From Bacteroidota bacterium (lineage in GTDB: Bacteria > Bacteroidota > Bacteroidia > UKL13-3), in NCBI GenBank assembly GCA_027482225.1, contig JAIXWD010000023.1, positions 1-64,000 on the forward strand: DNA of 64,000 bases, given 5' to 3'. The position numbers and the translations under genes are program-made. Under the pieces are notes generated by a model. It had not been told where the DNA came from, made no database searches, and worked only from the letters and a program-made list of their open reading frames with translations. Positions 27,626 through 31,027 of the stretch are shown one piece after another. The stretch's first letter is position 1. The number at the start of each line of letters is the position of its first letter.

Positions 27626-28495
27626 TTATAATAAATGTTTTTCTGCATGGTATGAAGAACGAACCAATGGCCCCGACTCGACATATTTAAGCCCCATATT
27701 AAGTCCTGCTTCTTTAAAATAGTCAAATTCTTCAGGGGTAACAAAACGTTCCACATTTAAGTGCATTTTAGTTGGTTGTAGGTATTGACCTAAGGTAACC
27801 ACATCACAGCCCCAATCTTTTAAGTCTTGTAAAACTTCAAGTACTTCTTCTTTGGTTTCTCCTAAACCTAACATAATTCCAGATTTAGTTCTGCGGCCGC
27901 GTTCTTTTGTTTTTAAAATCTGCTCTAAACTTCTTTCATATTTTGCTTGCGGCCTAACTTTACGATAAAGCCTTTTTACTGTTTCCATATTGTGAGAAAC
28001 AACTTCTGGTTTTTCATCAATCACCTGATACAATAAATCCCACTTAGATAAAAAGTCAGGAATTAGTGTTTCAATTGTTGTACCTGGGTTTAGCTCTTTT
28101 ACTAATCTGATGGTATCAGCCCAAACTTTTGCACCTTTATCTTTTAATTCATCACGATTCACTGAGGTAAGTACTGCATGCTTTACCCCCATTAATTTTA
28201 TGGCTTCTGCAACGCGCAAAGGCTCAGATAAATCATAATCTTGGGCTCGGCCAGTAGCAACTGCACAAAAACTGCAACTGCGTGTACATACATTACCAAG
28301 AATCATAAATGTAGCAGTACCTGCTCCCCAGCATTCTCCCATGTTTGGGCAACTTCCACTTTCACAAATTGTATGCAGTTTATATTCATCAACAATCTTT
28401 CTTACATTACGGAAGTTTTCTCCTGTAGGTAATTTTACTTTTAACCAAGATGGTTTTTTTATACGTTCTTCTGCTAAAGTTGGTAATTCTATCAT
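27626..28495 (-). CDS. lipA: Lipoyl synthase
   Basis: Radical SAM enzyme of 289 residues that inserts two sulfurs into protein-bound octanoate. The auxiliary cluster cysteines are Cys44, Cys49 and Cys55 ('[12 protein letters not shown]'); the radical SAM cluster is Cys70, Cys74 and Cys77 ('CTRSCSFC'). The C-terminal 'RSSYHA' carries the serine ligand of the auxiliary cluster. It starts 2 nt after the stop of an outer-membrane-like gene, so they share a transcript. lipB is not in the window. Confidence 0.97.
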
Positions 28496-28497
28496 GT

Positions 28498-29265
28498 TTA
28501 TCTGTTCTGTCCGAAATTAAATCCTAAAAATAATGTAATGTATAATTGATTGTTTTTGGCCAATTCATTAGCCATTAATGGCAGCGGTTGAGCAAATAGA
28601 TCAACACAAAATCCAGCTTCTAAACTGTTAAATGCATCAGGGTAATCGCCCCACTCAACTGACAAACTATTTTTAAAATGGCCACCTATACGAGCTGTCA
28701 TTTCATCAAATCCACGTGTAAAGGTAGCATTTCCATAGATGATATAAGGAGTAGTGTGTGTATTTATGGGTTCGTATTTTTCTGTAGCAATATAATCTTG
28801 ACCAAATGGATCTTGAGATAGTTTAAATACATCAATATAAATTGGTTTTAATAAAGCAGTGGTAAAACCAAATGAGTAATTATAGTGTAAGGAAACGGAG
28901 TTTTTATAATCGCGGGTGGTGATAAATATATTTTGACCATAACCTGTACGAAGGAAAAATGCCATGTTAACTCGTCCTGGAGTGTATTGCTTTGGGTTGT
29001 CAGATTGACCATAAACACGCTCTTCTTTTGGATGTCGAATACGTGCTAATTCCAATTCAAATCCGTTTTTCAGGAGCGCTGTTTTTTGCCACTGGTATTT
29101 AAAGTTTATACCTCCTAAGCTTGAGCTGTTTAAATTTCCACCATATAGCACACGTTTCCTATATAGCAATGTTGGTTCTGTTATTAAGTCGTTTTGTGCT
29201 ATAGCATTTAAAGCTGTTAGCATAAAAACCACACTACATAATTTGGCAACAACAGTCATGTGCAT
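28498..29265 (-). CDS. Exported beta-barrel-like protein of unknown function
   Basis: Protein of 255 residues with a signal peptide ending 'NAIAQN'. Alternating aromatic and polar strands ('[25 protein letters not shown]', ending '[14 protein letters not shown]') suggest a small outer-membrane beta barrel. I do not recognise a family. It lies directly upstream of lipA (2 nt). The start could be the first or third codon (both Met). Its start region overlaps the osmC promoter on the other strand. Confidence 0.65.
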
Positions 29266-29272
29266 ATATTTG
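29242..29272 (+). promoter_or_regulatory. osmC promoter
   Basis: TTTG, 19-nt spacer, TATATTTG: an exact Bacteroidota consensus promoter. It ends 22 nt before the osmC start, and most of it lies inside the first codons of the divergent gene. Confidence 0.8.
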
Positions 29273-29294
29273 AAAATTCAAAAATAAAAAAAAT

Positions 29295-29696
29295 ATGTAT
29301 ACTTCTGAGGTTATTTATTTAGGAGGTTTGCGCACGCAAGCTAAACATATGATAAGCGAAAGTGTAATGATAACAGACGCACCTATAGATAATCAGGGTA
29401 AAGGCGAGGCGTTTTCTCCAACTGACTTGTTAGCCACATCATTAGCCCAATGTATGATGACCATTATGGGTATTGAAGCTGTTAAACTTGACATTAATTT
29501 GACAGGAACTAAAATTGAAGTAACAAAAAAAATGACTGTTAGCCCAAGAAAAGTGGCTAAGATAGATATAGTATTTCATTTGCCTGAATCGGCATTTAAA
29601 TACAAAATTGAGTTAGAACATGCTGCATTAAACTGTCCAGTTGCACTTTCGTTAAACCCAGAACTTAAGCAGCATGTTGTATTTAACTACGTTTAG
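29295..29696 (+). CDS. OsmC/Ohr-family protein
   Basis: Protein of 133 residues of the OsmC family, thiol peroxidases that reduce organic hydroperoxides in the cytosol. The two redox cysteines are visible in 'LAQCMMTIMG' and 'LNCPVALSL'. 'GKGEAFSPTDLLATSLAQC' is the usual segment before the first Cys. It has its own promoter and ends convergent with a small lipoprotein gene, overlapping it by 4 nt. Confidence 0.9.
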   Translation: MYTSEVIYLGGLRTQAKHMISESVMITDAPIDNQGKGEAFSPTDLLATSLAQCMMTIMGIEAVKLDINLTGTKIEVTKKMTVSPRKVAKIDIVFHLPESAFKYKIELEHAALNCPVALSLNPELKQHVVFNYV

Positions 29697-29803
29697 TTGA
29701 AAAAGCTTACCCAATCAATACTGAATTTTGGGCAAGAACCTTTACAAGATGTTAAGCTAACCGATACTAGGGCTAGTGCTAAAATAATTATTACTTTTTT
29801 CAT
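29693..29803 (-). CDS. Small lipoprotein, 36 residues
   Basis: Short gene missed by length cut-offs. It encodes a start 'MKK', a hydrophobic stretch of about 12 residues, then the lipobox LTSC (Cys20) and a 16-residue mature tail with a second Cys and the end 'WVSFFN'. This is a textbook lipoprotein signal. It is convergent with osmC, and their stop codons overlap. On the minus strand TAACTTTG (29822-29829) lies 19 nt upstream as a possible -7 box, inside the methyltransferase start. The function is unknown; size recalls entericidin-like lipoproteins but I see no sequence match. Confidence 0.65.
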   Translation of the reverse strand: MKKVIIILALALVSVSLTSCKGSCPKFSIDWVSFFN

Positions 29804-29815
29804 ATAAAATATAGA

Positions 29816-31027
29816 ATGCTACAAAGTTATGTAAATATTATTCAATGTATGCAAGATTTAAACATTGAATTATTGAATGAGTATACAAAACTGTACAACA
29901 AGACACAGCTCATTTTGTTTCTTAAAAAGAAATATGGTGATTGCACTCCCTTTGTATCAGAGCAACTAGCGTTAATTGAGAAATCAAAAAAAAAGCTACC
30001 AGAATGGTTTGCCCAGGGTTGTTTTTTTACTAAAAAAAGTTTGGAGCAGTCTAGTTCAATTCCTTTGGCAAAATATAAAGCCTCTTTACTTAAAGGTGAT
30101 TTATTAATTGATTTAAGCGCTGGACTGGGCGTAGATGATGTTGCTTTTTCAAATACCTTTAATTGGGTTATTGGGGTTGATGTTGATGCAAGTTTAAATA
30201 CTATAGTTAGGCATAATTATGAACGGTTAAACATCCAAAACGTAACTAGGGTTGATGCCACTGCTGAAGCATTTTTGATTGATAGCCAAATTAAAGCAGA
30301 TGCTTACTACATTGATTCAGATAGACGTCCTTCTGGTTCTACCAAAACATTTTCTTTAAATGGTGCTACTCCAAATGTGCTAGAAATTTATCCTGCTTTG
30401 TTAGGCCAAGGATCTGAGGTACTACTTAAATTATCGCCAATGGTCGATATCGCATATCTATTTAATACTTTTGATCATATTAAACGGCTTTTTGTTGTTG
30501 GTGTAAAAAACGAAGTGAAAGAAGTACTATTGTTACTAAACAGCCAAGCCACAACTTATAAGAATAACATTGAGGCCGTTCAGGTAAATGAGGATGGCAA
30601 AGTTGAATTTAAATTTTCTCCTGCCGCCAATGAAGTAATAAGGTTAAGTACTATTGATGATCATTTTTTTTATGAACCATCAAATATGATTATAAAAGCA
30701 GGACTTAGTAATGTTTATGCTAAGAGTTGTGGTTTAAGCATAGTGTCAAAAAATAGTCATTACGCCACAGGCGGATATATTGATGGTTATTTTGGTAGAT
30801 GTTTCAGTGTGGTTAATCATTTTGATTTTAATAAGAGTGGCATTAAACAATATATAAAACAAAATAGCATAACCAAGGCAAATGTTTCTGCACGTAATTT
30901 TGTTAGCTCTGTAGATGAAATAAGAAAAAGCTTCAATCTTGAAGATGGGGGAGACGATTATTTGTTTTTTACACAAGATGCAGTTAAAAACAAGTTGTTT
31001 TGGCATTGCAAAAAAATCAGTCTGTAG
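29816..31027 (+). CDS. SAM-dependent methyltransferase with THUMP-like domain
   Basis: Protein of 403 residues. A helical N-terminal region is followed by a class I methyltransferase fold: motif I 'LIDLSAGLGVDDVAFS' (about 97-112), 'VIGVDVD' and 'YYIDSDRRP', the family's variant of the DPARR motif. The C-terminal third is the THUMP-like domain with 'ATGGYIDGYFGRCF'. The family is assigned to RNA or tRNA modification by similarity only; the target is unknown. The start ATG lies 12 nt from the start of the divergent small lipoprotein. The end overlaps the next, convergent gene by 11 nt. Confidence 0.8.
   Translation: MLQSYVNIIQCMQDLNIELLNEYTKLYNKTQLILFLKKKYGDCTPFVSEQLALIEKSKKKLPEWFAQGCFFTKKSLEQSSSIPLAKYKASLLKGDLLIDLSAGLGVDDVAFSNTFNWVIGVDVDASLNTIVRHNYERLNIQNVTRVDATAEAFLIDSQIKADAYYIDSDRRPSGSTKTFSLNGATPNVLEIYPALLGQGSEVLLKLSPMVDIAYLFNTFDHIKRLFVVGVKNEVKEVLLLLNSQATTYKNNIEAVQVNEDGKVEFKFSPAANEVIRLSTIDDHFFYEPSNMIIKAGLSNVYAKSCGLSIVSKNSHYATGGYIDGYFGRCFSVVNHFDFNKSGIKQYIKQNSITKANVSARNFVSSVDEIRKSFNLEDGGDDYLFFTQDAVKNKLFWHCKKISL

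Follow-up and report, generated by a model that had tools for sequence, protein, structure and literature searches.

A 36-codon gene convergent with osmC and its predicted family of very small lipoproteins in Bacteroidia

The locus

The window, that is, the whole stretch of 64,000 nucleotides that was analysed, carries at 29693-29803 on the minus strand a small gene of 36 codons followed by TAA, for which orthologs were found. Its product, MKKVIIILALALVSVSLTSCKGSCPKFSIDWVSFFN, is a predicted lipoprotein. Residues 1-19 (MKKVIIILALALVSVSLTS; 29747-29803, minus strand), as read from the sequence, form a putative signal peptide in which a positive start (MKK) is followed by hydrophobic residues 4-16 and by LTSC, the LTS lipobox preceding the Cys. 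Then come the conserved core CKGSCPKF (residues 20-27; 29723-29746, minus strand), delimited by alignment and by 113 members of the family, and a variable tail, SIDWVSFFN (29696-29722, minus strand), which is missing from five relatives. The core comprises the lipobox Cys20, a second Cys four residues later (Cys24), Pro25 and the aromatic Phe27.

The initial annotation, which gave no strand, had claimed a complete short frame with ATG, a hydrophobic signal and LTSC, as well as a 16-residue tail with a second Cys after the lipobox Cys; all of these are present as read in the minus-strand frame. Frame 1 of the plus strand is interrupted by stops in 29693-29803, and on the opposite strand of this interval there is another 36-codon frame, with a TTG start.

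The small gene is convergent with an osmC-like gene (29295-29696, plus strand; Pfam PF02566, PDB relative 2pn2). Its TAA lies at 29695-29693 and the TAG of osmC at 29694-29696, so that the two stop codons overlap by 4 nt (29693-29696), exactly as had been claimed. On the other side, 12 nt separate the start of the small gene from that of a divergent methyltransferase-like gene with a THUMP-like domain (29816-31027, plus strand; Pfam PF18096). Beyond osmC, as seen from the small gene, lie a gene for a 255-residue protein (28498-29265, minus strand), a conserved neighbour, and lipA, encoding lipoyl synthase (27626-28495, minus strand; NCBIfam and Pfam).

The 255-residue protein has no match in Pfam or NCBIfam. 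Its AlphaFold2 model has a mean pLDDT of 84.0 and a pTM of 0.75, and the best Foldseek matches of the model include NspA, Ail, OmpA and OmpX (best E 1.6e-05, query TM-scores about 0.4). By fold it is predicted to be a small, OmpA/OmpX-like outer-membrane beta-barrel. In many Bacteroidia loci the barrel gene and lipA have remained adjacent.

Evidence for a gene

A protein search of 58 related genomes recovered the gene, scores being strong within the genus and lower within the family. Examined locus by locus, it adjoins osmC in 25 of the 35 same-family genomes. According to the OsmC profile, three of the remaining ten have no osmC match and seven have one; four of these seven carry a divergent relative beside osmC, of the SCHRQKCPTFS or SCQKKICPTFK type, and three do not. 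A relative is thus found beside osmC in 29 of the 32 same-family genomes with an osmC match. Protein search accounts for 25 of these relatives; the four divergent ones were recognised by their motif next to osmC, without a score.

The initial annotation had held the frame to be non-random, and had named a lack of conservation or of codon-position bias as what would speak against it. Neither was found. Over the 21 pairs formed by seven same-genus sequences, pN/pS ranges from 0 to 0.65, and third-position changes are the most frequent in most pairs. The two closest sequences differ by two synonymous and no non-synonymous changes. Close relatives thus exhibit a synonymous surplus, and in distant ones the motif, and often the locus, is kept.

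Upstream elements were also considered. The -7 box of Bacteroidota has the consensus TAnnTTTG, and a candidate, TAACTTTG, is present on the minus strand at 29822-29829; it precedes the ATG by 18 nt and falls within the beginning of the divergent methyltransferase frame. Among the 113 members, TAnnTTTG occurs at most 80 nt upstream of the start in 56, whereas 100 shuffles gave 7.7 on average and never more than 15, and the opposite strand gave 6; since the members are related sequences, this excess does not amount to a strict probability. It speaks for a promoter belonging to the small lipoprotein gene itself. In the interval 29200-30000, no Rfam match and no terminator were found, and a sigma-70 scan gave values near the shuffle level.

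Short frames are common, and the TTG frame of equal length on the opposite strand illustrates that a frame of this size might arise in the gap between osmC and the methyltransferase gene by chance. The probability of this is practically nil, because selection at the codon level, orthologs at the same locus, the class-wide motif described below and the promoter enrichment already refute it. On the same grounds, which include a conserved frame under purifying selection, the 36-codon frame is almost certainly a genuine gene. The earlier claim, that a short gene for a lipoprotein converges with osmC, is therefore supported, its lipoprotein part as a prediction. The positive N-terminus, the hydrophobic stretch and the lipobox before the Cys, by which lipoproteins are recognised, are all found in the window protein, which is very probably processed as a lipoprotein.

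Core motif of the family

The 113 distinct members were selected by profile, and conservation of the motif among them is partly built in; gene order provides independent evidence. Three partial matches, which are second copies in L116, L179 and L062, are excluded from this number, and one member departs from the full pattern yet has the second Cys. At position -3 of the lipobox, 100 of the 113 have Leu, Phe or Met; at -1 all of them have Ser or Ala, the search pattern itself having required Ser, Ala, Gly, Thr or Cys at the latter position.

The core consists of the lipid-bearing Cys, three to seven residues, a second Cys and usually Pro-x-Tyr/Phe. The second Cys is present in all 113 members, and the number of residues between the two Cys is 5 (76 members), 3 (24), 4 (10), 6 (2) or 7 (1). 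Pro directly follows the second Cys in 100 of 112 members, and Tyr or Phe stands three residues past it in 111 of 112. The tails, on the other hand, vary: they are hydrophobic in the family of the window (SIDWVSFFN, SIDLPIIGLSF), whereas many other members have polar, basic ones (GKVDKEKTERSV). In 25 of the 113 the C-terminus is formed by a basic residue, at most one further residue, Ser and then Val, Ile or Leu. Conservation in these predicted lipoproteins centres on the Cys-x(3-7)-Cys-Pro-x-aromatic core and not on the tail.

Five members from three genera end at the core, four with CKGSCPKF and one with CKGACPNF (L012, L019, L021, L023 and L024). After the predicted cleavage, their mature lipopeptide would be eight residues long. 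Such very short mature parts might suggest that the signal peptide or a cleavage fragment is the active product, as in lipoprotein-derived pheromones, and that the mature part is a remnant. The alignments point in the opposite direction, the signal region being variable and the core after the Cys being conserved, and this explanation is hardly credible.

Many distant members share the form C-K/R-S/T-H-E-x-C-P-A-Y, as in SCK[ST]HE[RK]CPAYGK. A His-Glu-x-Cys-Pro-x-Tyr stretch of this kind could provide a membrane-located binding site for a metal or haem. The His and Glu are, however, absent from the whole family of the window (CKGSCPKF) and from other members (CSSKLCPAY, CSTAKSCPAY); therefore, binding by these residues cannot be the common function, and a role as metal or haem ligand is considered very unlikely.

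Tandem second copies of the small lipoprotein occur in L183 (5525-5801) and also in L198, L199, L189, L179, L068 and L101; often the Pro after the second Cys is replaced in them (CDAYGK, CAAYSK, CQAYSK), or the tail is of another type. Tandem arrays of other small lipoproteins, matched via PG1828 or signal-peptide profiles, were noticed in G112 (contig 3, 289995-290800) and G175 (contig 94, 29823-31021). Near osmC, L138 (3925-4206, minus strand) and L234 (about 1035-1271) have lipoprotein frames of greater length that begin in a similar way (CRNGKIPCPKFGTDKK... and CKPKKASKCPSYENSGNTKVKYNKDG..., respectively); these two share a Y-x-K-D-G-like stretch and perhaps represent a related family. An 88-residue lipoprotein-like open frame, acidic in its middle part and rich in His towards its end (EGHDHAGHSH), was seen in the genome of the window itself, at 1501-1746 of the reversed locus L002 (contig 22, 135408-135494).

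Extent of the family

The reach of the family was estimated with a profile built from 21 members (A3) and a decoy made of the same signal peptides with reversed tails. At E ≤ 1e-4, profile A3 has matches in 268 of 395 Bacteroidia genomes; with the limit set at E ≤ 1e-7, the figure is 178 of 365. The decoy matches 94 of 390 genomes at E ≤ 1e-4, many of these matches being the same genes reached via the signal peptide, and none of 390 at E ≤ 1e-7 (best 2.1e-7). Therefore, about half of the genomes of the class carry a relative beyond what the signal peptide explains. In a draw at the level of the phylum, a profile of 26 diverse members (A4) matches 9 of 247 genomes at E ≤ 1e-6, and among the 29 matches listed all are from the same class. 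A tblastn search of a plasmid collection with one distant member gave no match.

Gene neighbourhood

Gene order was compared in 40 loci with strong matches, drawn from 24 families, some of the stretches ending at contig ends. UNG lies divergently upstream in 33 of the 40, and in 22 it is followed further out by a POTRA-domain protein. Linkage to OsmC is not universal: it is convergent downstream in 27 and absent from 13. The small outer-membrane barrel and LipA are present in 27 each. The methyltransferase in the family of the window occupies the place that UNG has in distant families. CKGSCPKF, the convergent osmC, and the barrel and lipA beyond it place the window protein within the family, as defined by Cys-x(3-7)-Cys-Pro-x-Tyr/Phe.

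When OsmC was taken as the anchor, a family member (> 20 bits, within 4 kb) was found in 17 of 80 loci, a set that extends beyond Bacteroidota and includes Psychrobacter, Mailhella and many Flavobacterium records without a member; in all 17 it lies downstream of osmC on the opposite strand. Pedobacter nanyangensis, Daejeonella lutea, Pararcticibacter amylolyticus and Nubsella zeaxanthinifaciens are among the cultivated carriers with a member at this distance from osmC. Where the lipoprotein gene and osmC are on the same stretch, they are convergent in all 86 pairs, of which 23 overlap, 16 by exactly 4 nt; these pairs come from 103 stretches of very unequal length, some picked via osmC, and neighbour tallies from them are not frequencies.

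The predicted small lipoprotein family is thus spread widely across Bacteroidia, often in the same gene neighbourhood. The initial annotation, made from one sequence alone, could not reveal this class-wide family, or that osmC is one among several conserved neighbours.

BrxC bacilliredoxin lies directly downstream on the lipoprotein strand in 7 of the 40 loci. It follows the lipoprotein gene on the same strand in all four f40 loci (L222, L223, L224 and L228), at a distance of about 80-90 nt in three of them and about 0.8 kb in L224. Bacteroidetes are described as producing bacillithiol (PMC6282198). These observations, together with a second Cys that is invariant among the profile-selected members whereas the Pro is lost in 12 of 112, raise the possibility that the second Cys is a membrane-tethered thiol, serving as a sensor, scavenger or disulfide partner in conjunction with BrxC, the OsmC peroxidase and LipA nearby. 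The lipoprotein would, however, face the periplasm, and UNG, OsmC, BrxC and LipA are cytoplasmic enzymes. In addition, an acylated lipobox Cys leaves a single free thiol, so that no internal disulfide can form once Cys20 is acylated. In the genome of the window no BrxC was found at the lipoprotein locus, nor any VKOR-type disulfide-forming enzyme at E ≤ 0.001, which gives no help to a disulfide role. A thiol-redox function is accordingly considered improbable.

Possible function

The eight-residue members set narrow bounds on the function, which must be achievable with no more than a lipid, two cysteines and a single aromatic residue. Since cleavage would leave five relatives with just eight residues, the peptide cannot fold alone, and would therefore act through a partner or through its own chemistry. 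Docking, with the thiol as a possible contact, is favoured because the members have in common a predicted lipid anchor, a thiol and an aromatic residue.

It may be proposed that the precursor is exported by Sec, cleaved and acylated at Cys20, and sorted to the outer membrane, where it would face the periplasm. The mature peptide would then dock on an envelope partner, either an outer-membrane barrel or an assembly machine. The membrane-proximal Cys-Pro-x-aromatic stretch would make the contact, and the thiol might form a reversible disulfide. The peptide would be a housekeeping accessory, working as LptM does for the LPS translocon while being unrelated to LptM. The POTRA-domain protein and the small barrel, with the counts given above, are envelope genes nearby and speak in favour of an envelope role; on the other hand, UNG, OsmC, BrxC and LipA are cytoplasmic, and the conservation of the neighbourhood could be fortuitous or have different causes. 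The docking mechanism, which is drawn by analogy, is put forward tentatively. The explanation as a whole, that of a tiny envelope lipoprotein gene whose processed product may serve as a docking accessory peptide, is considered reasonably probable.

A family so widespread and so conserved in its place in Bacteroidia is likely to matter for the envelope biology of this class, which comprises bacteria of the environment and of the gut. Concrete candidates for partners are offered by the genes that recur nearby, namely UNG, OsmC, BrxC, the small barrel and LipA.

Comparison with known families

When the members were scanned with the Pfam and NCBIfam models, no model reached its cut-off. The nearest NCBIfam model is the PG1828 family lipoprotein (NF050142), which at E ≤ 0.01 is matched by 13 of 26 members, the best of them at 3e-07; it scores 20.3 bits with the window protein and 31.1 with the best relative, against a cut-off of 50. 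This model was also searched in 119 genomes, and among the matches listed and compared none coincides with the family loci. The best Pfam match of the window protein, DUF4995 (PF16386), has 16.8 bits against a cut-off of 28.4 and is matched by 1 of 26 members at E ≤ 0.01. Entericidin A (NF007319), which is likewise a very small lipoprotein, reaches 15.8 bits at best against a cut-off of 86, also with 1 of 26 members at E ≤ 0.01. A PDB profile search gave three matches with E of 0.43 or worse, whose alignments span the signal-peptide and lipobox end only. A literature search with words for the core motif returned no relevant paper within its scope, and among the titles and abstract openings listed for small lipoproteins in Bacteroidetes, for unannotated small proteins and for outer-membrane complexes, none concerns the family. 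The predicted lipoproteins thus make up a widespread family that is new with respect to Pfam, NCBIfam, PDB and the literature searched. It belongs to a known kind, but its working core is unusually small.

The closest functional parallel is LptM (YifL) of Enterobacteriaceae, also a small lipoprotein, in which the residues immediately behind the lipobox Cys are conserved. LptM is characterised by binding to LptD-LptE and by assistance with the LptD disulfides. According to PMC10567701, LptM docks on LptD-LptE, the remainder of the protein is poorly conserved in other Proteobacteria, and the mature acylated form has a mass of 5888 Da, which is far larger than the eight-residue peptide of the shortest members here. 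Identity with LptM was rejected: the LptM model (NF047847) gives 14.5 bits against a cut-off of 27.7 and aligns over residues 1-20, the signal peptide, only. The two differ in core and in phylum. Small lipoproteins are easily missed, and LptM is an example of how one of them can control an essential outer-membrane machine. It is conceivable, if doubtful, that the uncatalogued mini-lipoproteins of this class, with a unit reduced in the extreme to an acylated octapeptide, are accessories of an envelope machine of Bacteroidota and an independent counterpart of LptM.
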